Source of the DNA: Sutterella megalosphaeroides
GTDB taxonomy: Bacteria; Pseudomonadota; Gammaproteobacteria; Burkholderiales; Burkholderiaceae_F
Assembly: GCF_003609995.1 (NCBI RefSeq)
Contig: NZ_AP018786.1
Coordinates: 1,870,001 to 1,934,000, forward strand
DNA: 64,000 bases
Direction: 5' to 3'
Made by a program: the position numbers and the translations under genes. The notes beneath the pieces were generated by a model. The model saw only the letters and a program-made list of their open reading frames with translations. It was not told where the DNA came from and ran no database searches. Each line of letters begins with the position of its first letter. Position 1 is the stretch's first letter. This document shows positions 1,210-34,434 of this stretch, piece after piece.

Positions 1210-1221
1210 ATAAACCCTTTT

Positions 1222-2193: not shown

Positions 2194-2213
2194 ATTCAAA
2201 TCCTTCGCAAATT

Positions 2214-2903: not shown

Positions 2904-2914
2904 TCTTACCTCCG

Positions 2915-4908: not shown

Positions 4909-4909
4909 T

Positions 4910-5767: not shown

Positions 5768-5772
5768 CTGTC

Positions 5773-13120: not shown

Positions 13121-14722
13121 TCAGAAGTTCGAAGAGTTCGTTTTATTCGGATGATCGTGATCGTTCGGAACGATCGGGTTGATCGCCGTCAACCGTTCCG
13201 GGCGAAGGGAAGACGATACCACGGATTCGCGGTGCGGCCACCGCACCCACAGGGTGTCGGACGGAATTTCGTCCTCGCGCCCCCGCAGGACGCCGAGCCC
13301 CGGCAGGTGGTCGCCGTAGATGCAGAGGTCGATTCCTCGGCCCGGAGCCTCCGAAGCTTTCCTCCCCTCTTCCGCCTCGACGATCCGGCACAACCCCGCA
13401 TCGAGGTGCTTCAAATGCGTTTCGTAGCGCTCGACTTCGGTGAGCTTTTCCGCCCCCGGGAATTTGTCCTTCGACCAGGGACCGTGCGCTTCCATCGTCA
13501 CGACGAAGAGAAAGACGGGTTCCCGGGCTTTTTCGAGGTACTCCGCCGCCCACGCAAGGAGTGCTTCGTCCGAGACGTAATGCCCGCAGTACGCTTCGGG
13601 CTTCGTAAAACGCGCATCAAGCTTTTTCAAGGCCTCCAGATCGATGAACTCGTCAAACCCCAAATTCGGCATCACGCGGTTGCGATCGAAAAAGCGCCCG
13701 TCGTTCGGATGGCAGACGACCGTACGGTACCCCTGAAGCTTCATGCGTCGGGCGAGACTCTCCATCGGCACCATGGCCGCCAACCGATAGGGGTCGAACC
13801 CGTAGGTTTCAAGCGCCCGGGGCTTCAACCCCGTCAGCACCGCGAATTCGCTTCGCATCGTATAGGCCCCGCGCCAGTCGAGCTCCAGGGCTCCCGACGC
13901 ACCCTCCGCCGCCAGTCGGTCGAGGACGGGCGTCACGCTCGGACGCCCCAAGAGCCGCCCGATGGGTGCGAGCGACTCCGCCTGGACGAGAAGGAGGTGC
14001 CGCTTTTCGCTTTCACCCAAAACACCCTTCGAACCCTCTTCCGGCGAAACCTCCCGCTCCTCAAAGCGGAACCGCTCCCGCAACGCATGACGCCGCTGCC
14101 CGTGCCAAAGCACATGCAGAAGCGCCGCACCGATCGGCGTGTAGGTCGCGGCATCGGTCTGGGTGTCGAAGGTCAGGGGGTAGTTCGCAAGAAACGCCTC
14201 CACCCGCGGGTTGGGCCGACGTACATACGCCACAAAACCAGCAAAAGCCAGAAGAATCGCCGCCGCGATGCCGATTCGCATCCCGACGGACCCGAGGCGG
14301 GCGGCGGGCTCAAGAGACACCCCCCACGCAAGGAGCGCAAAGGCTCCGACGACCAACGGCCACACCCACAAGGGCGCATAGCCGAAGTAGAGCCTCGGGT
14401 AACGCAATGCGTGGCCTGCCAAAAAGACGTCCGAAAAAACGAGCACCTCCGAGAGGATCGCCGCCTTCAAGCGGTTCCCCGCCCAAAGAAGCACGATCAA
14501 AAGAAGCCCCAGAGCGAAACTCGCGATCGGTCGGTCGAAAAGGACGAGGAGCAACGGATAGACGAGCGACGCCGTGAGGCCGCACGTGAGGTGCCCGATT
14601 CCGTAAGCGCGAAAGGGCACTTTCATTCCGCGTCCCGCAGCCAAAGGCGTCGCCTCACGGTTCGCAAGCGCCAAGAGCCCCATGAGGACGATGTCCGAAA
14701 GGAGTACGAAGAGAACGGTCAT
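13121..14722 (-). CDS. Membrane sulfatase-fold (LTA synthase-like) transferase in capsule locus
   Basis: A 533-residue integral membrane protein with about five N-terminal transmembrane segments (residues ~1-185) and a C-terminal alkaline-phosphatase/sulfatase-fold domain. Visible site elements are a metal ligand in VQAESLAPI, a probable nucleophile Thr in GAYTMRSEFAVLTG near residue 287, a histidine in MEAHGPW near 412 and the metal-binding YGDHLPG near 471. This is the architecture of lipoteichoic acid synthase, OpgB and phosphoethanolamine transferases, which move phosphoglycerol or phosphoethanolamine from phospholipids. A gene in the equivalent place, wcbQ, occurs in the Burkholderia pseudomallei capsule locus; I recall that assignment from memory. 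It probably modifies the capsule or its lipid. The start codon overlaps the stop of the upstream SDR gene by 4 bp. Confidence 0.78.
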   Translation of the reverse strand: MTVLFVLLSDIVLMGLLALANREATPLAAGRGMKVPFRAYGIGHLTCGLTASLVYPLLLVLFDRPIASFALGLLLIVLLWAGNRLKAAILSEVLVFSDVFLAGHALRYPRLYFGYAPLWVWPLVVGAFALLAWGVSLEPAARLGSVGMRIGIAAAILLAFAGFVAYVRRPNPRVEAFLANYPLTFDTQTDAATYTPIGAALLHVLWHGQRRHALRERFRFEEREVSPEEGSKGVLGESEKRHLLLVQAESLAPIGRLLGRPSVTPVLDRLAAEGASGALELDWRGAYTMRSEFAVLTGLKPRALETYGFDPYRLAAMVPMESLARRMKLQGYRTVVCHPNDGRFFDRNRVMPNLGFDEFIDLEALKKLDARFTKPEAYCGHYVSDEALLAWAAEYLEKAREPVFLFVVTMEAHGPWSKDKFPGAEKLTEVERYETHLKHLDAGLCRIVEAEEGRKASEAPGRGIDLCIYGDHLPGLGVLRGREDEIPSDTLWVRWPHRESVVSSSLRPERLTAINPIVPNDHDHPNKTNSSNF

Positions 14723-15702: not shown

Positions 15703-15798
15703 AGGACGTATCGTTTCTCGAATTCACAAAAGAAGTGAGCGGTCGCTTTCGGTTTTCGGGCGTATTCCTCGGCTCTTGCTTTACGTTCACGTCCTTTT

Positions 15799-16407
15799 TT
15801 ACTTGGTTCCGGCCACCGGCTTCACCCAAAGCTCGCCCCCCGCGGGGTGACGCTCCAAGAGCGGCCCGCCCGAGGGGGTGGCACCCGCCTTCACGAACCC
15901 CGCCTTTTCGTAAAAGCGGATGGCACGCGCGTTGTCGGCCCAGCAGTGAAGCGCCAGCGCTTTCTTCCCCGAATCGCGCGCCATGTCTTCGGCCATGCTC
16001 ATCATGAGGCGCGAGAGCCCCTGACCTCGGAATTCGTCCGCCACCCAGAAGGTGTTGATCCAGAGCGCTTCCGGGTAGGCCGCTTCGAGAAGCGGTCGCA
16101 CGGGGTCGAGCTTCGCTTTGGCAATGAACCCCTCCATCACGGCGGGCACCTTCTGAAGCGACGCGTCGTAGGAGAAAAGAAGCCCCGCCAACGTCCCGCG
16201 AACTTCGAAGAGCACGATGTTTTTGAGGTCGTACGCCCCCTGCCCGCGCATCAGAACCATCTGCAAAAGCTTCTCGGGCCCCATACCGGGAACGACCCCC
16301 GTCAAGAGGTGTTCGATCACGCCTTCGGAGACGACATTCAAAATGTGAGCGACGGCGGGAACGTCGTCCTCACCGGCCAGGCGCATGTTGAGTTCGGGAG
16401 AAATCAT
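15799..16407 (-). CDS. GNAT-family N-acetyltransferase
   Basis: A 202-residue GNAT protein. The acetyl-CoA loop region is INTFWVADEFRGQGLSRLM (beta4 then the R-G-Q-G-L P-loop), followed by ALALHCWADNARAIRFYEKAGF, the standard C-terminal half of the fold. The frame is open to 16470, but the ATG at 16407 has an AAGGA site 6 nt upstream and is preferred. The substrate is unknown. It sits between kpsS and the SDR, all in one direction, so N-acetylation of an amino group on the capsule, its sugar precursors or the predicted amino-lipid is possible. A generic housekeeping GNAT that happens to be in the operon cannot be excluded. Confidence 0.85.
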   Translation of the reverse strand: MISPELNMRLAGEDDVPAVAHILNVVSEGVIEHLLTGVVPGMGPEKLLQMVLMRGQGAYDLKNIVLFEVRGTLAGLLFSYDASLQKVPAVMEGFIAKAKLDPVRPLLEAAYPEALWINTFWVADEFRGQGLSRLMMSMAEDMARDSGKKALALHCWADNARAIRFYEKAGFVKAGATPSGGPLLERHPAGGELWVKPVAGTK

Positions 16408-16510
16408 GAAAAATCCTTGGTAGTCCGAAAATGGGTGGCTGCTCGTCAAAGCCGTACAAAAAGCGATCAAAGTAGCGTACGAGGAAGCGAACAGGGATGC
16501 AATCAGGAGG

Positions 16511-16535
16511 AAAGGCGCTTATCAAATACGCCTTT
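16511..16535 (-). terminator. Weak hairpin after kpsS
   Basis: AAAGGCG and CGCCTTT form a 7-bp stem around an 11-nt loop just beyond the kpsS stop. On the minus strand it is followed by a pyrimidine-rich TTTCCTCCT stretch rather than a clean U-run, so termination is probably partial. Confidence 0.35.
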
Positions 16536-16556
16536 CGACACTCTGTTCCTTCGTGT

Positions 16557-18107
16557 TCAGACGGTTTTTTCCCCAACACGTCCGGAAGGCACAGCCTCAA
16601 GACTGGCGACGACCTCCGCCACCCCTTGTTCTTCGGCAAGGCGAAGCACCATCATGCCGCTCTTGGGTTTCGTGCGTTCCGAGCGCGCAAAGCGCTCCAC
16701 GGCGTCCTCTGCCGCGAGTTTCATCGCCTTGTCCGTATAGAAGTTCCCCCGCACGAGCGCTCTCTCGCCCAAGACGCGCTTGAAATCCCGATAGAGTTCC
16801 GGGTCGGGCGCTTGAGGGGCCCGCCAGAAGCGGTCGAGCGTGACGTAGGGAAGGCACTGCGTGAGGCCTCTTAAGTTGTAGATCGACCGCCCCAAGCAAT
16901 AGACGGGCTTACCCGCTTCGAGCGCCATCAACCCCACGGTGCTGTTCACAAGCACGACGCCTCGCGAACCGCGGATCATCTTCATCGTATTGCCGTCTTC
17001 GACATACGTCACACGGTCTTCGATCCCGAGCTCCCGCGCGAAGCCGCGGATGAAGTCCCCGTAACGAATGAGACCGTTGTCAAGGGGATGGTTGCGTATC
17101 AGAAGGCGCGTTTTGGGAAACGCACAGCGCGCAAAGGACGAAAGCACGTCCGCAATCGCTTCCTGCACGCGTACGTACGGGGAATAAAGCTGAATCTGAC
17201 TGTCGGTAACGAGCTGGAGCGGAAAGAAGAAGTAGGGTTCCGTCCGCTCTTCGAAGGCCTTCAGGGTCTCCTGCGAGGTCTTGGCACGCGACGCGCGCTT
17301 GAGGTAGCGCGGCAAAATCCCCAGAAGCTCGAAAAAGATGTTCGTCGGGCGGTGGGTGCGGTAGTGACGGTACTTGGGCCAGAGGAAGAAATTCCCCGCA
17401 TGGTGAAGAATCGCCTTCGTCACCTTGTCGTGGAGGTCGTTCTCAAGCTTTGCTTCCGTCGGATCCGGCAGGTCCTGCGCCAGGGCATGGATTTCCTTCG
17501 GGTTCGTGGGGAGAGACGACCGCCCGTTGACGCCGTTTTCTTCGAGCGTTGAAAAGCCCGAACGGAGATACCCTTCTTCAAACACCCACACGCGGATCCC
17601 GCGCACGTGCGCGAGTCGCACCGCTTCCCAATGCAAAGGTCGCCAGTCGCCGTAGAGGCAAATGTCCGTGATGCCGCGTTCGCGATAGAGGTCCCCCACC
17701 CACTCGGGCCAGCCGTAGATGTCTCCGGTGTAGGCAATGGCGGGATTCGTGAGGCCCCAGAGCACCGCATCCCCGCCGCAAAAGTTCACCTTGGCGACCG
17801 TGGCACCTTCCGCGCGCAGGCGGTCGGCGAGACGACGGAAGAAGAGACTCTGAGGGCCCTGAAGAAGAAGGAAAGAACGACCCGAGAGCGATCCTGAGGT
17901 GGCAGCAGTAGCGGAGGATTTCGATTGCTCGGATATTTCCGGAGAAGTCAACGTAGACGATGAATTTGAAGCCTTTGCCAAGGGAGCAGTTTCCGCTCCG
18001 GGACGACGAATGCGGTTTTTCTCCGCCGAACGCTTCTCCGGGCGGCCTTTCGACTTTACATCCTTACCGCGAGCCGTAGACGACGATTGTTGGGTGACCT
18101 CTTTCAT
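16557..18107 (-). CDS. kpsS: Capsule Kdo transferase KpsS with basic N-terminal extension
   Basis: The KpsS enzyme adds the first beta-Kdo to the lipid acceptor of the capsule. Recognisable elements are LLLQGPQSLFFRRLADRL, the FEEGYLRSG motif near residue 182, RNHPLDNG near 340 and VNSTVGLMALEAGKPVYCLG near 380-400, all typical of KpsS/LipB-type capsule proteins. The protein is 516 aa against ~390 in E. coli. About 75 extra N-terminal residues are rich in Ser, Lys and Arg and look disordered. The gene is divergent from kpsU, 132 bp away, so a promoter for the leftward capsule transcript probably lies in that gap. No clear ribosome site precedes the ATG, so a start somewhat downstream, removing part of the extension, is possible. 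Confidence 0.92.
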   Translation of the reverse strand: MKEVTQQSSSTARGKDVKSKGRPEKRSAEKNRIRRPGAETAPLAKASNSSSTLTSPEISEQSKSSATAATSGSLSGRSFLLLQGPQSLFFRRLADRLRAEGATVAKVNFCGGDAVLWGLTNPAIAYTGDIYGWPEWVGDLYRERGITDICLYGDWRPLHWEAVRLAHVRGIRVWVFEEGYLRSGFSTLEENGVNGRSSLPTNPKEIHALAQDLPDPTEAKLENDLHDKVTKAILHHAGNFFLWPKYRHYRTHRPTNIFFELLGILPRYLKRASRAKTSQETLKAFEERTEPYFFFPLQLVTDSQIQLYSPYVRVQEAIADVLSSFARCAFPKTRLLIRNHPLDNGLIRYGDFIRGFARELGIEDRVTYVEDGNTMKMIRGSRGVVLVNSTVGLMALEAGKPVYCLGRSIYNLRGLTQCLPYVTLDRFWRAPQAPDPELYRDFKRVLGERALVRGNFYTDKAMKLAAEDAVERFARSERTKPKSGMMVLRLAEEQGVAEVVASLEAVPSGRVGEKTV

Positions 18108-18239
18108 TTTTTTCTACAATAGATCCTCTCCGTCGGGATCCCGAAAGTTTATCAAAGCGGGCCGCGACGGCGGTTTTACGTTTTACATTACCTTCGACGA
18201 CGATTCTTCCCGACCGTGGGCGGATCGTTTTCCAAACCG

Positions 18240-19010
18240 ATGTCCTACACCATTCTCATCCCCGCGCGCATGCACTCCAAGCGCCTTCCGGACAAACCCC
18301 TCAAGCTTCTTGCCGGGAAACCCATGATTGTGAGGGTTGTCGAAAATGTTCGCGGTACCTCCGCCGAACGCATCGTCGTGGCCACGGATCATGAAGCCAT
18401 TTTTGACGCTTGCCGCCAGGAAGGCATCGAATGTGTCATGACCCGACACGACCACCGCACCGGAACCGATCGTCTGAGCGAAGCCGTTACGAAGCTCGGG
18501 CTTCCCGACGACGCCGTCGTCGTGAACGTTCAGGGTGACGAACCCATGATCCCCACGTCGGTCGTCGATCGCGTGGCTCAACTTCTCGTCGAACATCCGG
18601 AATGCGCCATCGCCACGGCCGCCCATCCGATCGACGATGTCGAAAGCTTCCTCAACCCCAACATCGTGAAGGTCGTGCTCGACGGTCGCGGCAACGCGTT
18701 GACCTTCTCCCGTGCGCCCATCCCCTGGCCCGACGGCTGCGAGTCCCCGAAGGCGCTCACCGCCCTGCCGGAAGGTTGCCATCCCCTTCACCACATGGGG
18801 ATCTACGCCTACCGCGTCGGATTTCTCAAGAAGTTCCCGACCCTTCCCCGTGCGCCGATGGAAGCGGCCGAGAGCCTCGAGCAGCTTCGCGCGCTCTACA
18901 ACGGCGACAAAATCGCCGTGACCGTGCTCGAAGAGTCCCTCCCCGCAGGTGTCGATACCGCCGAGGACCTCGAACGTCTGCAAGCTGCGTATTCTCAGAA
19001 AAACGCGTAA
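18240..19010 (+). CDS. kpsU: CMP-Kdo synthetase KpsU/KdsB
   Basis: Couples CTP to Kdo, giving the CMP-Kdo donor for KpsC and KpsS (and for lipid A core). The N-terminal IPARMHSKRLPDKPL, followed by GKPMIVRVVENV, matches the KdsB/KpsU pattern, as do VNVQGDEPMIP and HMGIYAYRVGFLKKF further on. At 256 residues the length is right. An upstream GTG at 18216 is in frame, but the ATG at 18240 gives the family N-terminus (MSYTILIPAR). It is the only capsule gene on the plus strand; it is followed by a strong terminator and faces the oxoamine synthase gene. Whether it is the only CMP-Kdo synthetase of the cell (kdsB) or a capsule-specific second copy (kpsU) cannot be decided here. Confidence 0.95.
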   Translation: MSYTILIPARMHSKRLPDKPLKLLAGKPMIVRVVENVRGTSAERIVVATDHEAIFDACRQEGIECVMTRHDHRTGTDRLSEAVTKLGLPDDAVVVNVQGDEPMIPTSVVDRVAQLLVEHPECAIATAAHPIDDVESFLNPNIVKVVLDGRGNALTFSRAPIPWPDGCESPKALTALPEGCHPLHHMGIYAYRVGFLKKFPTLPRAPMEAAESLEQLRALYNGDKIAVTVLEESLPAGVDTAEDLERLQAAYSQKNA

Positions 19011-19028
19011 CTACACCTTGCGTTACCG

Positions 19029-19064
19029 AACGGAGGCGAGCTTTGCGGCTCGCCTCCGTTTTTT
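19029..19064 (+). terminator. Rho-independent terminator after kpsU
   Basis: AACGGAGGCGAGC pairs perfectly with GCTCGCCTCCGTT across a 6-nt loop and is followed by a run of T. It lies between two convergent genes and may serve both directions, though only the plus-strand side has a good U-tract. Confidence 0.92.
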
Positions 19065-19089
19065 CGTACCCGCAGTGCCCTCAGTTCCC

Positions 19090-20481
19090 TTACCGCCCCA
19101 TCGCGGCCACGTCTTCGCGGGCCTTCGGGAGCTCTTCCACCACGATGTCGATCGCACGACGGACGTGCTCCACGTCGTGCGCGGCGGAAAGGAAAAAGCG
19201 CAGACGCGCGGCACCTTCTTCGACGACGGGGTAGATGATGGGCATCACGTTCACGTGTCGGGCGAAAAGACGCGCGGCGAGCTTCCCCGCAAGCAAGGAG
19301 CTTCCGAGCATGATCGGCACCACCGCATAGCCTTCCGCAGCCCCGGTATCAAGGCCCTTCTCTTTGGCGTAGCGCACGAACTCGTGACTCACCACCTGAA
19401 GCTTCGCGACGCGTTCGGGTTCGGCGAGCATCAGTTCGATCGCACGGCGCGATGCGGCCGCCAAGACGGGCGACATCCCGACGCTGTAGACGAACCCGGG
19501 CGAGGTGAATTTCAAGAGTTCCACGAGCCCCTTCGTCCCCGCGATATACCCGCCGCAGCCGCAGCAGGTTTTGGACAACGTCCCCATCCAGAGGTCGACG
19601 AGCTTGGGGTCGACCCCGAAGTGCTCGAACGTCCCGCGACCGGTCTTACCCAGAACCCCCAACGCGTGCGCTTCGTCGACCATGAGGAAGCACCCCCAGG
19701 TTTTCTTGAGGCGCAGAAGTCCCGGCAGGTCGCAGATGTTCCCGTCCATCGAGAAGACGCCTTCCGTCACGATCAAAGCGCGCTGCGCCTTCGGGCGGTG
19801 TTCCTTCAGGAGGCGCTCCAAGGCGGCCGTATCGTTGTGGGGGTAGCTGATGCGACGCGCCCCGGAGGCGAGCGCCCCCATCACGATCGAATTGTGCGCG
19901 AGCGCGTCGTGAAAGATCACGTCCTGGGGGCCGAAGAGCTTTCCGATCGTGGAAACGTTCGTCGCGTGGCCGCTCACATAGACAATCGCGTCTTCGGTTT
20001 CGTAAAGGTCCGCAATCGTCTTTTCAAGCGCACGGTGCGGGGGTCGTTCGCCCGACACCAAGCGCGAAGCCGACGCGCTCGTTCCCCACCGCTCCATCGC
20101 CTCGATGCCGGCCTTTTCAAGCTCCGGGTGCCCGTTCAGATCGAGGTAGTCGTAGGTCGAGAAATTGAGGAAAGGAACGCCGCCGATGCGGGTCTCGGCT
20201 TTTGCGATCCCGTCGTGGCACTGAAAGAAGGGATTCAGAATCCCCGCGCGTTCGGCGACGCTCTGCTCCATGCGGAGCTGCTTCAGAGCGGGAAACTCTT
20301 CAAAGGAGAGGGTCTTCGGGTCCGGAGTCCAGCGGGCTTCGTCGAGCGCACGGCCGCCGGCCGAGCCGGCAGCCCCGGAAGCCCCAGCCGCACCACTAGC
20401 GGCGTTCTTCTTCAGCCGCGCGAGCAGATTCGAGCGGTCCGCGCTCGTCAGTCCGAAAATCGAATTTTGTTTGTCGGTCAC
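19090..20481 (-). CDS. PLP-dependent alpha-oxoamine synthase (BioF/serine palmitoyltransferase family)
   Basis: A 463-residue fold-type I PLP enzyme. The Schiff-base lysine lies in GTLSKTCCGCGG near residue 303, and MVDEAHALGVLG carries the PLP-binding Asp and His. These enzymes condense an amino acid with an acyl thioester, losing CO2, to give an alpha-amino ketone (BioF, Kbl, serine palmitoyltransferase). At ~460 aa it is longer than BioF (~385), because an N-terminal region with an Ala/Gly-rich linker precedes the catalytic core. No biotin genes are nearby. The next gene upstream is a PKS ending in a carrier protein with no thioesterase, so this enzyme is the obvious candidate to offload the chain. 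A comparable gene (wcbT) is in the B. pseudomallei capsule locus. A GTG at 20481 after a GAGAG site is chosen over an in-frame TTG at 20496. Confidence 0.88.
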   Translation of the reverse strand: MTDKQNSIFGLTSADRSNLLARLKKNAASGAAGASGAAGSAGGRALDEARWTPDPKTLSFEEFPALKQLRMEQSVAERAGILNPFFQCHDGIAKAETRIGGVPFLNFSTYDYLDLNGHPELEKAGIEAMERWGTSASASRLVSGERPPHRALEKTIADLYETEDAIVYVSGHATNVSTIGKLFGPQDVIFHDALAHNSIVMGALASGARRISYPHNDTAALERLLKEHRPKAQRALIVTEGVFSMDGNICDLPGLLRLKKTWGCFLMVDEAHALGVLGKTGRGTFEHFGVDPKLVDLWMGTLSKTCCGCGGYIAGTKGLVELLKFTSPGFVYSVGMSPVLAAASRRAIELMLAEPERVAKLQVVSHEFVRYAKEKGLDTGAAEGYAVVPIMLGSSLLAGKLAARLFARHVNVMPIIYPVVEEGAARLRFFLSAAHDVEHVRRAIDIVVEELPKAREDVAAMGR

Positions 20482-20912
20482 GGGAATTTCTCTCAAAAGT
20501 CTTGTGGTTGCTTTTGTCGGTGTTTTCGCTGTTTTCGCTTGTTTCGCTTTTTGCCGTTTGGCTTTCCTGCCGTCTTCGTCTTCGTCGAATCCGTCGCCTC
20601 GCGTGCGTTCCTCCGCGGTTCGGTTGCCCGAGAGCGTAACGCAAAACGCGACAAGCGTCGCTTGCGCTCAAAAAACGGTGACGAACGTTGAAGGCCGTCG
20701 GGAAGCGGGGAAGGCGGGCGAAGGACGGTGAAGGATTCGAAAGGACTCGAAGAGCAGACCTCCGAAAAAGCATCGGGCGCTCGAGCCCCTTGCCTCTTTC
20801 GGGGACGGCGTGCGGGTTGCACGCCCGCCGTCCCCGATTCCTTACCGACTCCTCGGCGACTCTTCGGCGTTCCTTCAGTCCTTCACCTCACTTCACCTCA
20901 CCTCAGCTCGAT
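20482..20912. other. Gap between PKS and oxoamine synthase genes
   Basis: No convincing gene. Reading frames here encode only low-complexity basic sequence. The stretch contains a large imperfect hairpin at 20801-20835 (GGGGACGGC against GCCGTCCCC, with an inner GTGC/GCAC pair) and a short CTCACTTCAC-type repeat at about 20881-20910. The hairpin could attenuate transcription between the two genes, or act in mRNA processing. No U-run follows it on the minus strand. Confidence 0.5.
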
Positions 20913-23900
20913 TCACGCCCCCTTCCCCGAAGCCCCGACGTCCGCGAGGACGCCTTCCTTCAGTTCGGCGGAGAGTGCGACCCCGTGACGGTGCGCGAGA
21001 TCGTCGAGCGTCTGTTCGCCTTCGTTCTTGACGTTCAACATCTTCCAGAAGCGCTCGGCCATCGTGCGAATCGTCGCACCGCCCGAAAGCGACACGGCGG
21101 GGATCTTGAATCCAAGACGCTCTTCGAGCGCAGCCGCCAATTCCACCACCATGAGGGAGTCCATCCCCAAGTCCGCCACGGGCTGGTGGGCGTTCAATTC
21201 CGAGGCCGCCACACCCATGAGTTTCGCCACTTCCGATGCAACGAGCTCGGTGAGGATTCCGACCGCCTCTTCTTCGCTCTTACCCGTCAGCAAGTCGCGA
21301 ATCGAACCCGCATCGGCGCGCTTTTCCCCGACCGTCGCCCAAATCCCCGCAAAGCGCGGATCGCGTGCGGCAGGCAATTGGTCCACGCGGCTCCAGTCGA
21401 TCGCAAAGAAGTGGAGCGGCGTACGGCCGCCCTTTTCCACCATGGCGTCAAGGGCCGCCAAGACTTCCGTCGAATCGAGTGCCGGAGTACCCAAGGTCGA
21501 CTCGAGGATCTTCTTCGCGCTCGGGTTGACTTTCAGCATCCCGACGTCGCCGACCGGACCCCAGCCGATCACACGCGAAACGAAACCCGCACGACGGGCG
21601 CGTTCCGCGAGGACTTCCAGCGCGGCGTTCGCCGCCACGTAGTTCGCCTGACCGGGGTTCCCAAGCAAGACCGTAGCGGAAGAGAAAAGGACGCAGAAGG
21701 GAGCGGTCTTCTTTTCGAACGCTTCAACCTTTTCCTCTTCTTCCTCAGCCTTCGCTTCTTCCCGAGCCTTATGGGCCTCAAGCGCCGCCAGGAGGTTTTC
21801 CGCCCCCTTCACCTTCGGCCCCCAGACGCGCTCGCACGCTTCCCGCGTCAGGTTCGGGATCATGGCGTCCGCCAACACCCCGGCCGCGTGCACGACGCCC
21901 GCCAAGGGGGGCATCGTTTCCAGGACCGAAAGAAGCGTCGTCACGACGGCAGTGCGGTCACCCGCAATGTCCAAAGCCGGAGCCGCAACCTTGAGCCCCG
22001 CGAAGCGTTCTTCCAAAGACCGCACGAATTCGGCCGCGTCCTGATCCGCCAAGCCGCGACGCGAGAGAAGGACGAGCCCCGTCGCACCCGCACGGGCGTA
22101 GTGTTCCGCGGCCTTCCGCCCCAAGCCCCCGAGACCGCCCGAGAGGACGACCGTACGACCCGAAACGGAACGCGGAAGGGCTTCGGTCGAAACCGGCGTT
22201 TCCTTCACGTCATGCACGTCATGCACGTCATGCGCTTCATGCGTTTCAGCAGCTTCGTCGGTCGCTTCGCTTTGCGTGCGATACGCGACGACGAGCTTTC
22301 CGATATGAACGGAACTTTGCATCGTCGCAAAGGCGTCGCCCGCCGCATCCGCGGGGAAGATCATGAGGGGCAACGGACGGAAGACGCCCTCTTCGAAGCG
22401 CGCGAGGAGCTCGCGGAAGAGGTCCGAAGCGAGCGCCGGGCAGTCGACCAACATCTGGTCGACGTCGATACCGAAGTAGGAGATATTGCGACGGAAGGGT
22501 CGCAGGAACATCGGGCTGTCGGCGTAGAAGTCGCGCTTACCGAGCTCGAGGAACCGTCCGAAGGGTGCCAAAAGCCCCAGGGACTTTTCGGCGCCGTTCC
22601 CTGCCAAGGAGTTGAGCACGAGGTCCACCCCGCGCCCCTTCGTATCGCGTCGGATTTCGTCCGCAAAGGCGAGCGAGCGCGAATCGTAGACGTGTTTGAC
22701 GCCCAAGCGCTTCAGAAGCGACCGCTTCGCGTCCGACCCTGCGGTTGCGAAGACTTCGAGCCCCAGGTGGGCGGCGATCTGAATGGCCGCCAGCCCCGCA
22801 CCGCCCGCGGCGCCGTGAATGAGGATCGACTCCCCGCGGCGCGCGCGACCGAGGTAATGAATCGCGTACCAGGAGGTAAAGAACGCAACCGGAACGGAAG
22901 CCGCTTCGGCAAAGGTAAGGTTCGAGGGCTTCTTCGCCACGGCTTCTTCCGTCGTACGCACGACCGTGCTGAAGCACGCGGGGGCAAAGGCCACGACGGC
23001 GTCGCCCGGCTTCACGCTCGTGACGCTCTTACCCGTACGGCGCACCACACCCGAGGCTTCCAAGCCCATCGTCGGACCCGAGAACCCGTTTTCGAGCGCT
23101 TCTTCAGGCAGCAACCCCATCGCCCACATGACGTCGCGGAAGTTGAAACCCGTCGCACGGACGTCGATTTCGACTTCGGTGTCGCCCAAGGGGGCGGTGA
23201 AGCGGTCCGACTTCCAGTAGAGGTGGTCGAGCTTGCCCGGAACGTCAAAAGCGAGCGTACGGCGGGGCGTGAGGTCGCCCTCCTTCGAAGAAGACGAAGC
23301 CCTCGAAGAAAGCGAAGCGGTCCCAGAGGTCTCAGAGGTCGCACCCTGCAATTCCTCAGCCTCGTCCGAGAGGTCGCACGTTTCGACGTAGCGTCGGTAG
23401 AGGCGCCCTTCGGAAACGGCCGTTTCGCTTTCGAATTGCGCAACCGATTCCTTCGGTTCTTCACCCGATGCTTCATCCGAACGTGCCGTCCCCCCGGCCG
23501 TGAAGCCGCGAAGGAGTTCCACGGAGGCGCGCTCGATCGATGCGTCCGTTCCGTCCTGAAGAGCAACCGTGCGCACCGTCACCGACGGGCATTCGTTCGC
23601 AAAGACGCGCAGAAGCCCCACGGCCGCACGGGCGGCGGGGGATTCCACCTCATCCGCACCCGTCGTGCACGGCACGCCCGAGAGCGCATCCGTAACCACG
23701 ACGACCTCAAGCCCGGCAGGAAGAGTTCCCGCCTTTTCCGCCGCCACCGCGGCGCGGCAGAAGGCGAAGAGTTCGTGCGGGAAGGCGTCCGCGGCTTCAG
23801 AAACGTACGGTTCGTTCTTTTCGATCTTTTCGCTAGTCGTCTTCACGAGGTCGAAGAACCCGAGGATACGCGTACCCGCGGGCAACGCAGCGAGCCGTTC

Positions 23901-26900
23901 GTTCCAAGCGACAGTGAGGCGCTCAAGCATATCGGAATCGTCACGCGTTTCACTCGATTCGGAGTGTTCGCTGCCGCCCGACACCGTCACGAGCTCAACC
24001 CCCGTCGTGCGAACGAGCGTCGAGAGAAGCGAAGCACGCGCAGCCGAAAGGGTCGAACCGTCGCCCTCTTCCTTCCCGTCCGTCAAGAAGCCTTCCGCCG
24101 ACGCCCCCGCAACGATGCGAAGACGGTCCGCGGGGAGGAAAGCCAAGAGCGACGCCGTCGTGCCCTCCGTCGTGCCATGAAGGGCGCGATCCTCTTCGGC
24201 GCTCTCAACCACCGCCGCAATCAGCATGCGGGGGGCAAGCCCCGTTTCTTCCGTATCGACGCGCGAAGCGGCAAAGCCCGCGCGTTCCAAAGCGGCAAGC
24301 CACGCGGCTTCGTCGGCAAGGGGCCCCGAGTAGGTACCGTTCCCTTCCGCATGCCACCAGGCGGCGTCCGCCCCGTTGAGGATGTCCGCCATCGTGTTGG
24401 GGGCTTCTTCAACGAGGAAAAGCGGCGCACCCGGAAGCATTCGAGCAGCCAAGGTCTTGAGGCACGCCGCGGGGTCCGCGAGGAACGCGAGCCCCTCGGG
24501 GAGGAGCACCGCGTCGAAGTAAGCATTCGAGAACGTATCGGCAAGCTGCGCGATCCCCGTCACCTTCACGCGGGGGTTTTCCGCGTATTCGGCACGAAGG
24601 CGCTCCAACATCGACGCTTCTTCCGAGTCGTCGGCGGCGATCACCAGCGTCACCGAGCGCGGGAGGGTCGAGGCCAAAAGCTTCGCGTAAGTCGAGCCCG
24701 AGCGGGTAACGAGAAGAATGTTCGGACGAACGGGGGTCTTCTTCGCTTCGAGTGCCTCCGTCACTTCGCGTACGTACCGGCACACGGCATAGGGCGCAAG
24801 AGCGCGCTTGGGCATGCGCTCGAACAAAGCCTTCATCACGGTCGCGCGCTTCGGGAAGACGACGTCGGCGGTGACGTCGCCCGCCACCAAGTCCGCACGA
24901 CGGGCGTCGAGCGTATCAAGAGCCGTGAGTTCCGGCCACAATTCGGGGCTTTCCGCCAAAACCGTACGGAAGAGGTCGTCGCAGGCGGGACAGTCGGCGG
25001 CAGAGAGCACGCGCACAAGCCCGTCCTTTCTTTCCGCAAGGCCGTTTTCCACCATCCGGTCAACGAGCACCTTCGCCCAGGGCTCCGCCTCTTCGGCAAG
25101 CCACGCTCCGTTCGTCAAGAGCGTCTCTTCCGCCACCCATTCGTCCTTCACGGGAACGGATTCGCAGAGACCCGCGAGGACGGTCCACATAAGGAGCGTA
25201 TCCGCATCGAGCGCGGCTTCGGGGTTCCATTCCATGGAACGGGCGGTGTCGGAAAGGGCGCGGGAGAGCGCACGACGAAGGCGAGAGACGTCGGCGGTCG
25301 TCCCTTCAGTCGTGGTGCCATTCGACTTTTCACCCGGCTCTTCGACCTTCCCTTCGCACGTCGCTCCGTTTTTCACTTCGGCGAAGATCGACGCACGGTC
25401 CGTATCGGCCGCGTACCAGGCTTCGGAGTAGAAAGCAGGGAGCACGCCCTTCGCTTTCTTATGAACGCGCAGGAACCGTACGCCTTCGAGGCGCGCGAGC
25501 ACGTCGCCCTTCGCGTCGTAGAGCGTGTAGAGGGCCTTGGCGGAGCGGTCCGTGAGGCTCAGGAGGTCCGCGGTCGCCCAAACGGGCGTGCCGCGCTCCC
25601 AAATCACGGTGCGCTCGAACCACGTAGGCAAATAGGTCGCACGAGAGGAAGCCCCGGAAGTCTTTTCGGAATTCTCACGAGCCGCTTTCGCATTCGCCGC
25701 CGCTTCTTCAAGCGCGAAGAAAAGCCCCTGAAGCGCACCGTCCACGAGCGCGGGCGAAAGCCCCTCGCCGCGGTCCGCTTCTTCGGATCGGCTCGCGAGC
25801 TTGACGACGACGCGGTGCGTGCCCGCAGCACGCTCCTTCGTTTCGAGCGTCTCAAGGCCGATGCGGGCGGATTCCGAATCGTCCTTCACGAAAAGGGCCG
25901 CTTCGATCGGGCGGAAGGCGCCCGCGTAGCAAAGACCTTCGGCCGCAAGCCGCTCGTAGAAGGGTTCGATGTCAAACGTCTTTTCGGCGTCGCGCAGGAA
26001 CGCTTCCGGGTTGACGGCCGCAGGACGCGGGGCATCCGAAACGGTCGCACGGCCCGAGAGGTTGACGAGAGCGTCGTCCTCGGACATTTCGTCGCGGGTC
26101 GAAAGCGTCAGCGTCCCCGCATCGTCCACCTTGGTGGAAAAAACCTTCGCGGGGGCGTCCGCGAGAGGAGCGGGACGCAGGATCATGAGGTTCTTGAGCT
26201 CAAGCGCACGCTCGGGGGCGAGCGCACGGCGGGCGGCCTCGGCCGCGACCTCAAGGAACCCCGCCGCCGGGAAGAGCACCGTCGCATCGATCTCGTGGCC
26301 TGCGAGCCACGGACGCGTCTGAAGGTCGAAGACCGCCTCCCAGGCGTTTTTCGCGTGCGGGATGCGACGCCCGAGAAGCGGGTGCTCCTCGGGGTCGCGA
26401 ACAAAAAGTCGGCGCGATTCCGGCGTCGCTTCCGCCCAGAAGCGCTTTTTGGCCCAGCGGTAGCGCGGAAGCGTACGGTCGCGGGAAACGGCGGGCCACG
26501 CAGCGAGCAAAGCCGCGTGCGGCCAGGCGGCGGCAACCGTTGCCGCCGATCGACCCCACGCCGAAGCCGCATCCTCGCGGCGCATGACGAAAAGGGTCTT
26601 CGCGTCGACCGACTTCGTCTTCGCGATCGCGCGCACGTACCCCGTCAGAATCCCGTGGGGACCCACTTCGACAAAGCGGTCGACGCCGAGATCGAGGAGC
26701 GTTTCGACGGCCGACTCAAAGCGCACGGCTTCGCGGATGTTGCGCCACCAGTAGTCGGCCGTGAGCTTTTCACCCTCCGTCACCTTCCCGTCGACGCTCG
26801 ACACAAAGAGCGTGCGGGAGGCCTTCGGGGAAAGGCGCCCGAGCGTACGTCGCACGTCCCCTTCCAAGGGCGCCATGCGGGAGCTGTGGAAGGCGTAGGG

Positions 26901-29138
26901 AATGCCGAGGAGCTTGCAGAGGCCCCCTTCCGACTTGATGACGGTGCGAAGGTGCTCGATCCCCTCGGGGTCCCCGGAGAGCGTGTAATTGTCGGGCGCG
27001 TTGTAGCCCGCGATTTCAACGCCCGGGTATGCGGCCAAGAGTTCCTTCAAACGCGCTTCGGGGAGCTTGACGGCCGCCATCGTGCCCGAACCCGCCATGC
27101 GTCCCTGCAAAAGGGACCGCTCGTAAATCACCGTGACGGCGTCTTCGAGCGTCAACGCGCCCGAAGCCCAAGCGGCGGCCACTTCGCCGACGCTGTGGCC
27201 CGTTGCGGCATCCGCCTCAATGCCTTCGGCACGAAGGAGTTCGGTCATGCCGATTTGCATCGCAAAGAGAAGCGGTTGCGCGACTTCGGTGCGCTCCAGG
27301 GTCCAGTCGGCTGCGGGCTTCGCGAGGTAGTCCGCAATCGACCAGCCCGCGAGCGGCGCGAAAATCGCGTCCACGCGTTCGATCGCGGCGCTAAAGCACG
27401 CGTTCGCCTTCAAAAGATCAGACCCCATCCCGACCCACTGGGAGCCGTTGCCGGAATAGACGAAGGCCGTACGGATGCGAGGGCGGCCCGCACCCGCCGA
27501 GGCGGCCGCGGCGGCCGTGCTTTCGGTCTTTCCGTCCTTCTTCGTGTCCGAAGCATGGTCGTACGCGGCCGTCGCCCCGTCGGGGAAGCGTTCCGTGTCG
27601 GCGTAAGCCGTAAGCCACCGGGCGGCTTCTTCGGGCGTTTCCGCACGCAGCCACACCGCGTGCGGCAGGCGATCGCGCTGATGCGCGGCCGCGGCGGCCG
27701 TACGGTTGAATTCCGCGGGAGAAAGGCCCTTCACGCGCTCGGCGTAGGCGCGAGCGAGCGACTTCAAGCTTTCGCGACTCTTCGCGGAAACAAGAAGCGG
27801 AAGGAGACGTTCGTCACCGGTCGTCGAGGAAACGGCGACTTCCGGAGCTTCGGGCGCTTCTTCGAGCACCGCGTGCGCGTTCGTGCCGCCGAAGCCGAAG
27901 GAATTGAGCCCCACGAGCGCGGGACCGTCCGTCTTCGGCAAGGGTTCCGAAACGGTCGGCACGCGAATGCCGAGCCCCTCGAAGTCGATCTTCGGGTTGG
28001 GTTCGGTCAAAAGGATGTTCGCGGGAATCGTCTTCTTTTCAAGGACCGTGAGGGCCTTCGCAAGGCCCGCCATGCCGGAGCCCGTTTCCAGGTGCCCGAC
28101 GTTCGACTTCACGGAGCCGACGGGCAAGGGTTCGCTTCCCGGCCGGCCCAAGACGCGGCCGATGCTCGCCGTTTCGATGGGGTCGCCCGCGGCCGTCCCC
28201 GTCCCGTGCGCTTCGACGTACGCGACGCGCGAAGCGGGGACTCGGGGGTCCGTATAGATGGACGTCAAAAGGGCGGCTTGCGCATCCCCGTTCGGAAGGG
28301 CGATGCCTGCCGTACGGCCGTCGGAATTGACGCCCGTAGCGCGGATCACGGCGTGAATCGCGTCGCCCGCTGCGAGCGCGGCTTCGAGGGGCTTCAGGAT
28401 GATGACGGCACCGCCTTCGGAGCGGACGTAACCGTTCCCCTTCGCGTCAAAGACCTTGCAGCGACCGTCTTCCGAGAGCATGTGGGCTTTGGAGAACCCG
28501 ACGAAGGGCATGGGCGAAAGGAGCACGTTCACGCCACCGACGAGCGCCATGGGGAGGTTTTCTTCCGCCATCGCGCGGCAGGCTTCGTTCAAAGCCACAA
28601 GGCTCGAGGAGCACGCCGTATCGATCGTCATGCTCGGGCCGTGGAGGTCGAAGAAGTAGGAAAGGCGATTCGCGATGATCGAAAGCGACGTCCCCGTCAT
28701 CCCGTAGGGGCCCGTCACCGCCATATCGTCCGAGCGAATCATCCCCATGTCGGTCGAAGCGGCACCGACGTAGACCGCGGCCTTGCTGCCCGCGACCGAG
28801 GACGGAGGAATCCCCGCGTCTTCGAACGCTTCCCAGGCCATTTCGAGGACCATGCGCTGCTGCGGGTCGAGCGCTTCCGCCTCCTTCGGGCTCATCCCGA
28901 AGAAGGTCGCGTCGAATTGCGTCAGGTCGCCCACGATCCCCGCACTCGTCGTGCAGGTGCGGCCCGGGGCCTTGCGGTCCGGATGCCAATAGCGTCCGAG
29001 GTCGAACCGCTCCCCGGGAATCGAAGTGACGACGTCCGTCCCTTCGGACAAAACCTTCCACAAGCCGTCGAGCGAATCGATGCCGCCCGGAAAGCGGCAG
29101 CCGATACCGACGATGGCAAATCCCTTGTCGTAAATCAT
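20913..29138 (-). CDS. Iterative highly reducing type I polyketide synthase (KS-AT-DH-psiMT-ER-KR-ACP)
   Basis: A 2,741-residue single-module synthase. The ketosynthase has DTACSSSL near residue 176, EAHGTGT near 311 and NVGHLE near 346. The acyltransferase has GHSVGE near 648 and YAFHSS. The dehydratase starts near 905; its GHEIDATVLFP loop has Ala where HxxxGxxxxP expects Gly, and VDGALQ near 1130 supplies the second acid. Residues ~1290-1640 resemble a C-methyltransferase, but the SAM loop (NILLVTRSGSTYAK) is degenerate. The enoylreductase has GAAGGAG near 2110, the ketoreductase SGGLGGLG near 2335 and ANYVAAN near 2500, and the carrier domain GMDSLM near 2660. There is no thioesterase. 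An ATG at 29138 with AAGGG upstream is chosen; longer frames lack homology. The product is probably a saturated long acyl chain released by the neighbouring oxoamine synthase, as proposed for wcbR of Burkholderia. Confidence 0.93.
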   Translation of the reverse strand: MIYDKGFAIVGIGCRFPGGIDSLDGLWKVLSEGTDVVTSIPGERFDLGRYWHPDRKAPGRTCTTSAGIVGDLTQFDATFFGMSPKEAEALDPQQRMVLEMAWEAFEDAGIPPSSVAGSKAAVYVGAASTDMGMIRSDDMAVTGPYGMTGTSLSIIANRLSYFFDLHGPSMTIDTACSSSLVALNEACRAMAEENLPMALVGGVNVLLSPMPFVGFSKAHMLSEDGRCKVFDAKGNGYVRSEGGAVIILKPLEAALAAGDAIHAVIRATGVNSDGRTAGIALPNGDAQAALLTSIYTDPRVPASRVAYVEAHGTGTAAGDPIETASIGRVLGRPGSEPLPVGSVKSNVGHLETGSGMAGLAKALTVLEKKTIPANILLTEPNPKIDFEGLGIRVPTVSEPLPKTDGPALVGLNSFGFGGTNAHAVLEEAPEAPEVAVSSTTGDERLLPLLVSAKSRESLKSLARAYAERVKGLSPAEFNRTAAAAAHQRDRLPHAVWLRAETPEEAARWLTAYADTERFPDGATAAYDHASDTKKDGKTESTAAAAASAGAGRPRIRTAFVYSGNGSQWVGMGSDLLKANACFSAAIERVDAIFAPLAGWSIADYLAKPAADWTLERTEVAQPLLFAMQIGMTELLRAEGIEADAATGHSVGEVAAAWASGALTLEDAVTVIYERSLLQGRMAGSGTMAAVKLPEARLKELLAAYPGVEIAGYNAPDNYTLSGDPEGIEHLRTVIKSEGGLCKLLGIPYAFHSSRMAPLEGDVRRTLGRLSPKASRTLFVSSVDGKVTEGEKLTADYWWRNIREAVRFESAVETLLDLGVDRFVEVGPHGILTGYVRAIAKTKSVDAKTLFVMRREDAASAWGRSAATVAAAWPHAALLAAWPAVSRDRTLPRYRWAKKRFWAEATPESRRLFVRDPEEHPLLGRRIPHAKNAWEAVFDLQTRPWLAGHEIDATVLFPAAGFLEVAAEAARRALAPERALELKNLMILRPAPLADAPAKVFSTKVDDAGTLTLSTRDEMSEDDALVNLSGRATVSDAPRPAAVNPEAFLRDAEKTFDIEPFYERLAAEGLCYAGAFRPIEAALFVKDDSESARIGLETLETKERAAGTHRVVVKLASRSEEADRGEGLSPALVDGALQGLFFALEEAAANAKAARENSEKTSGASSRATYLPTWFERTVIWERGTPVWATADLLSLTDRSAKALYTLYDAKGDVLARLEGVRFLRVHKKAKGVLPAFYSEAWYAADTDRASIFAEVKNGATCEGKVEEPGEKSNGTTTEGTTADVSRLRRALSRALSDTARSMEWNPEAALDADTLLMWTVLAGLCESVPVKDEWVAEETLLTNGAWLAEEAEPWAKVLVDRMVENGLAERKDGLVRVLSAADCPACDDLFRTVLAESPELWPELTALDTLDARRADLVAGDVTADVVFPKRATVMKALFERMPKRALAPYAVCRYVREVTEALEAKKTPVRPNILLVTRSGSTYAKLLASTLPRSVTLVIAADDSEEASMLERLRAEYAENPRVKVTGIAQLADTFSNAYFDAVLLPEGLAFLADPAACLKTLAARMLPGAPLFLVEEAPNTMADILNGADAAWWHAEGNGTYSGPLADEAAWLAALERAGFAASRVDTEETGLAPRMLIAAVVESAEEDRALHGTTEGTTASLLAFLPADRLRIVAGASAEGFLTDGKEEGDGSTLSAARASLLSTLVRTTGVELVTVSGGSEHSESSETRDDSDMLERLTVAWNERLAALPAGTRILGFFDLVKTTSEKIEKNEPYVSEAADAFPHELFAFCRAAVAAEKAGTLPAGLEVVVVTDALSGVPCTTGADEVESPAARAAVGLLRVFANECPSVTVRTVALQDGTDASIERASVELLRGFTAGGTARSDEASGEEPKESVAQFESETAVSEGRLYRRYVETCDLSDEAEELQGATSETSGTASLSSRASSSSKEGDLTPRRTLAFDVPGKLDHLYWKSDRFTAPLGDTEVEIDVRATGFNFRDVMWAMGLLPEEALENGFSGPTMGLEASGVVRRTGKSVTSVKPGDAVVAFAPACFSTVVRTTEEAVAKKPSNLTFAEAASVPVAFFTSWYAIHYLGRARRGESILIHGAAGGAGLAAIQIAAHLGLEVFATAGSDAKRSLLKRLGVKHVYDSRSLAFADEIRRDTKGRGVDLVLNSLAGNGAEKSLGLLAPFGRFLELGKRDFYADSPMFLRPFRRNISYFGIDVDQMLVDCPALASDLFRELLARFEEGVFRPLPLMIFPADAAGDAFATMQSSVHIGKLVVAYRTQSEATDEAAETHEAHDVHDVHDVKETPVSTEALPRSVSGRTVVLSGGLGGLGRKAAEHYARAGATGLVLLSRRGLADQDAAEFVRSLEERFAGLKVAAPALDIAGDRTAVVTTLLSVLETMPPLAGVVHAAGVLADAMIPNLTREACERVWGPKVKGAENLLAALEAHKAREEAKAEEEEEKVEAFEKKTAPFCVLFSSATVLLGNPGQANYVAANAALEVLAERARRAGFVSRVIGWGPVGDVGMLKVNPSAKKILESTLGTPALDSTEVLAALDAMVEKGGRTPLHFFAIDWSRVDQLPAARDPRFAGIWATVGEKRADAGSIRDLLTGKSEEEAVGILTELVASEVAKLMGVAASELNAHQPVADLGMDSLMVVELAAALEERLGFKIPAVSLSGGATIRTMAERFWKMLNVKNEGEQTLDDLAHRHGVALSAELKEGVLADVGASGKGA

Positions 29139-34220: not shown

Positions 34221-34434
34221 TCTTTTGGTCTGAATTCTCCTTCGAAAACACGGGATTAGTACCTAGGACTCCAGGTTGTTTTGAAATGTTTCCGTCTGCG
34301 TTTTCGGGGGTTTTCCCTCTCCGTCCTGGGGCTTGGGAGTCGGTACCGTTGTTCGGTGTTTCGGCCCGGACCACGCGCCCGACGGGGCGTGCGAGGCCGA
34401 GCACACGTTTGCAATCACCTCAGAGGAAAGCAAA

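Follow-up and report, generated by a model that had tools for sequence, protein, structure and literature searches.

The capsule locus and its polyketide synthase

We analyzed a window of 64,000 nucleotides from the 2.73-Mb, single-contig genome of Sutterella megalosphaeroides (contig NZ_AP018786.1, positions 1,870,001 to 1,934,000). Read by its open reading frames (ORFs) and Pfam matches, the minus strand of this window is a single capsule locus running from roughly 29.1 kb to 1.2 kb. In gene order it encodes an iterative polyketide synthase (PKS), a pyridoxal-phosphate (PLP)-dependent alpha-oxoamine synthase (AOS), KpsS, a GNAT-family protein, a short-chain dehydrogenase/reductase (SDR), a PF00884 protein, KpsC, a 17-kDa-antigen-like protein, KpsM, KpsT, and KpsE-like and KpsD-like proteins; low-GC genes including a glycosyltransferase follow, and then a cytidylyltransferase and KpsF. 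The CMP-Kdo synthetase (Kdo, 3-deoxy-D-manno-oct-2-ulosonic acid) lies on the plus strand, between AOS and KpsS. With KpsC, KpsS, KpsM, KpsT, the export proteins and this synthetase, the gene set of a poly-Kdo capsule of the ABC-transporter type is complete. An earlier sequence-only reading of the window had proposed that the PKS, AOS and SDR make a sphingoid-like amino alcohol beside such a capsule. Its recognition of KpsC, KpsS and KpsU (the CMP-Kdo synthetase) was borne out by PF05159 and PF02348 matches; its account of the genes was incomplete, with the GNAT and the PF00884 gene overlooked. What we state on gene content, families, conserved residues, associations and trees was read from sequence.

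Pfam places a ketosynthase (KS, residues 130–497 of the long PKS ORF), an acyltransferase (AT, 681–970), a dehydratase (DH, 1041–1351), an enoylreductase (ER, 2107–2406), a ketoreductase (KR, 2451–2652) and an acyl carrier protein (ACP, 2754–2818) in the PKS. The mechanical ORF begins at 29504; the ATG at 29138 fits the start of the KS. The motifs DTACSSS, EAHGTGT, GHSVGE, YAFH, LIHGAAGGAG and LGMDSL are present, and in the DH motif, inspected by eye, the His and Pro are kept and the Gly is replaced by Ala. The combination of GHSVGE and YAFH in the AT presumably specifies malonyl units. No thioesterase or reductase domain that could release the product was found (13 Pfam families at E ≤ 1e-3). 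Domains and motifs therefore agree with the sequence-only reading of a complete reducing iterative PKS that ends in a carrier domain without a thioesterase, the architecture of the PKS in the SgaAB pair of Pseudomonas fluorescens and the RkpA–RkpG pair of Sinorhizobium meliloti. The best PDB match in a sequence search was mycocerosic acid synthase, which is a reducing iterative enzyme. The expected product, judged from the domains, is a saturated long chain retained on the ACP. Some 700 residues between DH and ER (about 1360–2090 of the long ORF) have no Pfam match, and part of this region resembles a decayed methyltransferase by eye. The gap between PKS and AOS is 416 bases and holds two small ORFs without a family match.

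Identity of the oxoamine synthase

As the sequence-only reading had it, the AOS (PF00155) follows directly after the PKS, and the SDR (PF00106) lies in the same cluster and on the same strand. Eleven AOS-family NCBIfam models match the window AOS, all under their cut-offs; each of the 28 sequences in our first AOS alignment is matched by these same 11 models. The BioF model scores highest (335 bits, cut-off 426.45); the serine palmitoyltransferase (SPT) models give 266, 234 and 164 bits against cut-offs of 640, 500 and 670, below the level of a canonical SPT. A profile built from the 28 sequences found SPTs as its best PDB chains (3a2b and 8guh, 326 bits). Lys309, His201, Asp274 and His277, which we take to be the known functional residues of the AOS family, are invariant in 28/28. 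Asn202, also present in all 28, occupies the Ala position of the reference motif HAS.

A 60-row tree places 53 AOS in one clade (support 100/99), all of them with HN[S/C]; the BioF, KBL and SPT references have HAS. The BioF encoded by this same genome falls outside, as do the Escherichia coli BioF and KBL, SPT 3a2b and a Thermus enzyme. As drawn, the SPT is the nearest outsider, with long branches that make the outer order unsure. The rows do not include PfSgaB, the AOS of the P. fluorescens pair. The clade is mostly PKS-linked and takes in Pseudomonas relatives; within it, the window AOS falls among enzymes from Ruminobacter and from Desulfovibrionaceae of gut and rumen, a placement suggestive of transfer. 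Loci L080–L086 hold Desulfovibrio-type AOS with about 60% identity to the window AOS and no detected type I PKS; in D. piger, this AOS adjoins a glycosyltransferase and is oriented divergently to an ORF of 1253 aa (L082:6040-9801, minus) that carries AT and ACP domains.

Neighborhoods and genome co-occurrence of the PKS–AOS pair

We examined 117 loci, of which the named ones are the best 80 of 588 relatives. Matches to both AOS and PKS-ACP occur in 100 of the 117, and in 100/100 the AOS comes next to the ACP on its 3' side, in the same orientation and within 3 kb, a placement that argues for more than chance pairing. A type I PKS match was found in 70 of the best 80 named loci. Both flanks (at least 21 kb) were available for 48 of these 80, with a PKS in 42; among those 42, a kps gene was present in 26, KpsC or KpsS in 20, a PF00884 gene in 15 and an SDR in 20, and a kps or PF00884 gene lay within 10 kb in 33. 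The 17 of 117 loci lacking an adjacent type I PKS served as a rough control: KpsC/KpsS was found in only one of them, vs. 23 of the 70 named PKS loci. That one, L143, is a Nitrospira locus with AOS, KpsE/M/T and KpsC/KpsS, and no PKS match within the 21 kb examined. In L019, L020, L066, L089, L091 and L094, the PKS–AOS pair adjoins KpsM/KpsT/KpsE-like genes; three of the genomes concerned (G061, G107 and G211) gave no PF05159 match, perhaps reflecting a Kdo-free use of the lipid. In genomes G363 and G351 a single open frame encodes AOS as well as PKS domains, and a Streptomyces plasmid has a KS-AT region and an AOS in one annotated protein; a fusion is not claimed for G239/L073, where two readings of the open frame disagree.

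The co-occurrence of PKS, AOS and the KpsC/KpsS family that the sequence-only reading pointed to is seen across genomes. In 200 genomes of the order, AOS was found in 13 (E ≤ 1e-60) and PF05159, the KpsC/KpsS family, in 20 (E ≤ 1e-10); 9 of the 11 genomes with a PKS-linked AOS had PF05159, compared with 20/200 overall (Fisher 7e-9). G149, of the same genus as the window, has neither at these thresholds. In 398 genomes of the phylum, PF05159 was present in 15 of 16 PKS–AOS genomes vs. 66 overall (6e-12). These 16 have a separate AOS ORF of at least 375 bits plus a PKS, a line chosen after the scores were seen; G363 (375.6 bits), with its AOS fused to the PKS, was left out, and its inclusion gives 15/17. 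Without the 375-bit line, PF05159 occurs in 15/20 PKS-linked genomes (4e-9) and 16/24 of all AOS genomes (2e-8) of the phylum set.

The SDR, GNAT and PF00884 genes

The SDR residues N128, S164, Y177 and K181 are invariant in 20/20 sequences, and the SDR gene overlaps the PF00884 gene by 4 bases. By itself, the PF00884 protein gave a weak LtaS/OpgB match. An 18-sequence profile, in turn, found the phosphoglycerol transferase GacH as its best PDB match (5wcx, 124 bits), followed by lipoteichoic acid primase and synthases. E249, T288, H413, D471 and H472 are invariant in 18/18 and are candidate catalytic residues; by comparison with LtaS, the Thr is presumably the nucleophile and others presumably bind metal. 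The protein combines a PF00884 domain, invariant candidate catalytic residues and a best match of the GacH/LtaS type.

Members of this PF00884 subfamily (at least 330 bits) occur in 14 of the 398 phylum genomes, namely 12 of the 16 with PKS–AOS and 2 of the 382 others (6e-18). Among the 66 genomes with PF05159, they are present in 12/15 with PKS–AOS vs. 2/51 without (8e-9). The 330-bit line, too, was picked after the scores had been seen; at E ≤ 1e-30 the profile finds 37/398 genomes (12/16 vs. 25/382 others), and 12/15 vs. 4/51 within the PF05159 genomes. From these counts, the gene follows the PKS–AOS lipid more than poly-Kdo capsules in general. Two genomes, G487 and G509 (L161 and L162), have the subfamily without an AOS match; KpsC, KpsS and KpsMTE are present in both, their KpsS fall on the PKS-type side of the tree described below, and sulfate-activation genes lie near the PF00884 gene of G509.

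Relatives of the GNAT were found in only four of the 117 loci (L087, L088, L090 and L099). This protein could N-acylate or N-acetylate a sphingoid base.

KpsS, but not KpsC, segregates with the PKS–AOS pair

KpsS adds the first Kdo to the lipid, and KpsC extends the Kdo chain (PMC12220298). We compared trees of the two. The KpsS tree comprises 20 + 20 fetched stretches and loci already collected (57 rows, none dropped). KpsC came from 20 + 16 fetched stretches, one gene appearing twice, and both sets cover a subset of the PF05159 genomes; eight KpsC were dropped as too short for the 40-row tree (L234, L235, L236, L238, L056, L217, L226 and L241). Both proteins were collected for 32 genomes, 15 with PKS–AOS and 17 without.

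In the 57-row tree, all 26 KpsS from genomes without an AOS match lie on one side of a single branch (91/96; 93% of bootstrap trees). On the other side are 28 from PKS–AOS genomes, the window KpsS among them, and 3 from genomes with the PF00884 gene only. Three E. coli KpsS sit well inside the side that lacks PKS–AOS, and both sides mix the window's order, other orders of the class and other classes of the phylum. Several KpsS genes lie far from the PKS–AOS pair, tens of kilobases off or on another contig (G048, G160, G079 and G378), and the split holds for them. Over the 32 matched genomes, KpsS requires one change of PKS–AOS label (94/94; 95% of bootstrap trees), vs. a shuffled mean of 10.9. 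KpsC requires six, at least four of them forced, which is still below the shuffled 10.9; a single clade for the 15 KpsC of the PKS–AOS genomes was rejected (p-AU 2.9e-35).

The simple reading of these trees is that KpsS is adapted to the PKS–AOS lipid. A weaker one is that KpsS travels with the SDR and PF00884 genes as an operon, which would also tie it to the lipid. Transfer of the whole cassette as the sole cause of the split was rejected by the KpsC control trees.

A proposed sphingoid anchor and its alternatives

PfSgaAB forms 3-ketosphinganine in vitro, specifically from L-serine and with acyl-CoA surrogates, and deletion of either gene abolishes the sphinganines of the bacterium (PMC12134224). 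In strain MYb115 these sphinganines are accompanied by +154-Da forms, most likely phosphoglycerol sphingolipids (PMC12134224). By analogy, the PKS of S. megalosphaeroides would iteratively build a long, saturated, probably unbranched chain and keep it on the ACP, and the AOS would condense this acyl thioester with an amino acid, most likely L-serine, to release 3-ketosphinganine. A preference for acyl-ACP is known from rhodobacterial SPTs (PMC9386255). The SDR would reduce 3-ketosphinganine to sphinganine. The PF00884 enzyme would add glycerol phosphate from phosphatidylglycerol to the 1-hydroxyl, giving sphinganine-phosphoglycerol, a look-alike of lyso-phosphatidylglycerol (lyso-PG); we propose the same gene as the source of the +154-Da forms in MYb115. 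Finally, a lipid-specialized KpsS subtype would add the first Kdo, KpsC would extend it, and KpsMTED would export the lipid-linked capsule. The first two steps, sphinganine and the probable phosphoglycerol-sphinganine are experimental for the homologous PfSgaAB only (PMC12134224); the last three steps for a sphingoid lipid, and all of them for S. megalosphaeroides, are what we infer.

We consider it probable, though well short of certain, that the locus both produces a sphingoid anchor for its capsule and puts it to use in this way. The amino-alcohol product that the sequence-only reading had predicted from PKS, AOS and SDR finds support in the PfSgaAB chemistry. That reading had left three roles for the lipid, in place of lyso-PG, alongside it, or as a decoration of the glycan; the co-segregation of KpsS and the phosphoglycerol-transferase-like gene narrow these choices towards the anchor. 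The sphinganine is probably capped with phosphoglycerol as a mimic of lyso-PG, and it probably replaces the usual phospholipid tether of the capsule.

Several observations weigh against this proposal. GacH/LtaS-type catalytic domains are extracytoplasmic and KpsS is cytoplasmic, so phosphoglycerol transfer before Kdo addition would require flipping or a different topology; hydropathy and charges tallied over 10 orthologues of the PF00884 protein favored neither side. The PF00884 subfamily is absent from 4/16 PKS–AOS genomes, and L087, L088 and L090 have no SDR in the stretch examined. Every curated AOS model places the window AOS under its cut-off, with BioF the highest. Twelve of the 53 clade AOS come from loci without a detected type I PKS (L027, L072, L074–L077, L080, L082, L085, L086, L143 and L150), and the PKS-linked AOS of L078 falls just outside the clade and has HAS. 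KpsS often adjoins the SDR and PF00884 genes, and co-inheritance could explain part of the KpsS split. At E ≤ 1e-10, PF05159 is missing from three PKS–AOS genomes, G061 and G107 of the order and G211 of the phylum; KpsM/T/E-like genes lie within 10 kb in each of the three, so glycans lacking a Kdo linker may be a further cargo of the lipid. It is likewise missing from four other PKS-linked genomes with fused or lower-scoring AOS (G239, G351, G363 and G504), an indication that PKS–AOS pairs also serve other products. PfSgaB was assayed with acyl-CoA surrogates rather than the acyl-ACP of its PKS, and the MYb115 lipids were found free (PMC12134224).

Those free lipids bring up the strongest alternative, in which PKS, AOS and SDR yield a free sphingoid lipid or secondary metabolite, the capsule locus reflects linkage or co-regulation, and lyso-PG stays the anchor. 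The MYb115 sphinganines and phosphoglycerol sphingolipids are extractable and affect a host (PMC12134224); in 9 of the 42 full-flank PKS loci among the best 80 of 588, neither a kps nor a PF00884 gene lies within 10 kb, and the four genomes just named without PF05159 fit as well. Against it, the PKS–AOS pair is tracked by KpsS and not by KpsC over the 32 matched genomes, including where KpsS is remote from the pair, and the rhizobial rkp-1 region is reported to be a lipid-carrier region required for capsule and poly-Kdo secretion (PMC3557214, PMC4881576). We regard this alternative as unlikely, yet as one to be taken seriously. Decoration of the capsular glycan by the lipid or the phosphoglycerol in place of anchoring, with the PF00884 enzyme adding glycerol phosphate to a sugar in the periplasm as GacH does, has a natural topology on its side, and GacH, which modifies a polysaccharide, is the nearest solved relative by sequence. 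It fits poorly with a gene that follows PKS–AOS and not capsule genes generally (12/15 vs. 2/51, above), nor does it account well for the probable phosphoglycerol-sphinganines of MYb115 (PMC12134224), where the spacing of locus tags is consistent with a PF00884 gene lying between sgaB and sgaC; we judge it improbable.

That the AOS serves in biotin synthesis (BioF) or threonine breakdown (KBL) and stands beside the PKS by chance seems to us very improbable indeed. The BioF model is its top match, but under the cut-off; E. coli BioF and KBL fall outside the AOS clade, and the invariable position 3' of the ACP is hard to reconcile with chance. The genome has a second AOS (C1:1427517-1428605), adjoining bioA, which scores 522 bits against a cut-off of 405, and a BioC-like gene with 134 bits against 185, so that, as the sequence-only reading had noted for the neighborhood of the PKS, the biotin genes lie elsewhere. 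Because this BioF also misses the BioF cut-off (272 bits), our rejection of a biotin role rests on context rather than score.

Other features of the window

Coordinates of the locus are collected in the table. The KpsE-like protein gave no match in the Pfam search; its profile picks up genes adjoining KpsM/KpsT in many loci. A 266-aa ORF at 18183-18983 was rejected as a gene, being antisense to KdsB and without a family match.

Features of the capsule locus in window coordinates
Feature	Position	Strand	Basis and remarks
PKS, iterative fully reducing type I, RkpA/WcbR/SgaA type, KS-AT-DH-unassigned region-ER-KR-ACP	20913..29138	-	Pfam, motifs
PLP alpha-oxoamine synthase (AOS), RkpG/SgaB type	19090..20496	-	PF00155, tree; conserved from about residue 64, start uncertain
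CMP-Kdo synthetase (KdsB/KpsU)	18216..19010	+	PF02348, 196 bits
KpsS, first-Kdo transferase	16557..18107	-	PF05159, trees (PKS–AOS side of KpsS tree)
GNAT-family acyltransferase	15799..16470	-	PF00583; alternative ATG at 16407
SDR, predicted 3-ketosphinganine reductase	14719..15702	-	PF00106
Membrane PF00884 protein, predicted phosphoglycerol transferase	13121..14722	-	PF00884, best PDB match GacH 5wcx
KpsC, Kdo-extending transferase	11015..13108	-	PF05159, two stretches
17-kDa-antigen-like protein	10601..10966	-	DUF5061
KpsM, ABC exporter membrane protein	9799..10674	-	PF01061
KpsT, ABC exporter ATPase	9137..9802	-	PF00005
KpsE-like inner-membrane export protein	7603..9276	-	Profile match pattern, no Pfam match; start uncertain
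KpsD-like polysaccharide export protein	5773..7599	-	PF02563 + SLBB
Glycosyltransferase in low-GC region	4910..5767	-	PF10111, GC
Second cytidylyltransferase	2214..2903	-	PF02348, 37 bits
KpsF/KdsD-like sugar-phosphate isomerase	1222..2217	-	PF01380 + CBS

Over the sugar genes at positions 1-6000 of the window, GC falls from about 60% to 39-42%; this is likely an acquired serotype region. Beyond the locus, all on the plus strand, lie a 1168-aa subtilase autotransporter (34333-37839), two very large ORFs with extended type V signal peptides (2609 aa at 44721-52550 and 2697 aa at 55738-63831), a molybdopterin oxidoreductase (41677-44049) and a DDE transposase (52771-54510).

Comparison with known systems

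Like the window, the sga cluster of MYb115 has an AOS after its iterative PKS and also includes an SDR, and sphinganine is the tested product there. The two differ in that PfSgaAB(C) is presented as a two-gene secondary-metabolite cluster (PMC12134224), which we compared through its published description. A word search of the main text of that report for 'capsul', 'wcb' and 'rkp' returned none. Its locus tags, RS19800 for sgaB and RS19775 for sgaC, leave four tags between them (PMC12134224). On a plasmid of Pseudomonas sp. TMW 2.1634 that is typed as mobilizable (L168, NZ_CP016850.1), the capsule genes next to PKS and AOS lie on the opposite strand, in the order PhyH, KpsC-like, GNAT, 'LTA synthase', SDR, KpsS and KpsC; the first four of these separate AOS from SDR, the same spacing as in MYb115, and we place a PF00884 gene between sgaB and sgaC of MYb115 by inference from it. 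Pseudomonas putida L111 has a closely similar gene set, and the Pseudomonas relatives with an sga-like layout (L111 and L168) fall with the window's type.

In a record of S. meliloti labelled pSymB (strain Ak57), the order is PKS–AOS–SDR–PF00884–KpsS, which fits rkpA-rkpG-H-I-J, the names being assigned by order and not from the record. Window and rkp-1 region share these five functions; the window differs in its order, AOS–KdsB (plus)–KpsS–GNAT–SDR–PF00884–KpsC, and in its extra GNAT. A lipid of the rkp-1/wcb capsules has reportedly been postulated since the 1990s, in papers of 1993 and 1997. The rkp-1 region reportedly makes and modifies a lipid carrier or anchor of the capsule (PMC3557214, PMC4881576), and the wcb and rkp PKS genes have been tied to capsule clusters (PMC3908369). 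The likeness to wcb loci of Burkholderia that the sequence-only reading had suggested stands, in that wcb loci of Burkholderia and Cobetia hold a PKS and lipid-carrier genes; the Cobetia operon is described as 'lipid carrier biosynthesis', 'probably fatty acids', and adjoins kpsSC (PMC11766843). The remark of the sequence-only reading that the product is not settled is out of date for the type of pathway (PMC12134224). A relative on a Paraburkholderia plasmid, L170 (KpsS–SDR–'LTA synthase'–PKS–LpxC-like–AOS–GNAT), differs from the window by its LpxC-like gene between PKS and AOS, annotated as a deacetylase (L170:10890-11804); the wider PKS–AOS gap of Burkholderia loci may contain the same gene.

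The PfSgaAB chemistry was already known (PMC12134224), and a lipid-carrier role of rkp-1/wcb is an older proposal. New here are the PF00884 phosphoglycerol-transferase-like candidate, the match to the rkpA-GHIJ order and the split of KpsS by PKS–AOS presence; limited searches of openly licensed papers (CC0, CC BY, CC BY-SA) turned up none linking SgaAB-type sphingolipids to capsule anchors. We would put at about even the chance of a broader statement: that sphinganine-phosphoglycerol, and not lyso-PG, anchors an entire branch of poly-Kdo capsules, namely those made by rkp-1/wcb/sga loci across alpha-, beta-, gamma- and deltaproteobacteria. On that view PF00884 would supply the phosphoglycerol step so far missing, KpsS would have diverged into two types by acceptor, and MYb115's 'protective sphingolipids' would be precursors of a capsule anchor. 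If true, bacteria use sphingolipids as capsule anchors, a host-active bacterial sphingolipid would be recast as part of surface-polysaccharide assembly, and a reason would be suggested for the abundance of sgaAB homologues, which are very common in Burkholderia (PMC12134224). The rkp-1/wcb lipid, the SgaAB chemistry of 2025, the phosphoglycerol candidate and the KpsS subtype together make the question directly testable.

Fungal PKS and AOS make sphinganine analogues of the fumonisin type, with a reducing PKS that lacks a thioesterase and release by the AOS; these systems differ in being eukaryotic, in their toxin products and in having no capsule. With the group 2/3 capsules of E. coli, which end in phosphatidylglycerol–poly-Kdo, the window shares KpsC, KpsS and KpsMTED-type export (PMC12220298). 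It differs in its PKS, AOS and PF00884 genes, partners that go unmentioned in the parts of that report used here, and the three E. coli KpsS stand on the opposite side of the KpsS tree. The window locus is of the rkp-1/wcb/sga kind, and a poly-Kdo capsule on the proposed sphingoid-phosphoglycerol anchor, with a KpsS subtype to match, would be a new form of such capsules.

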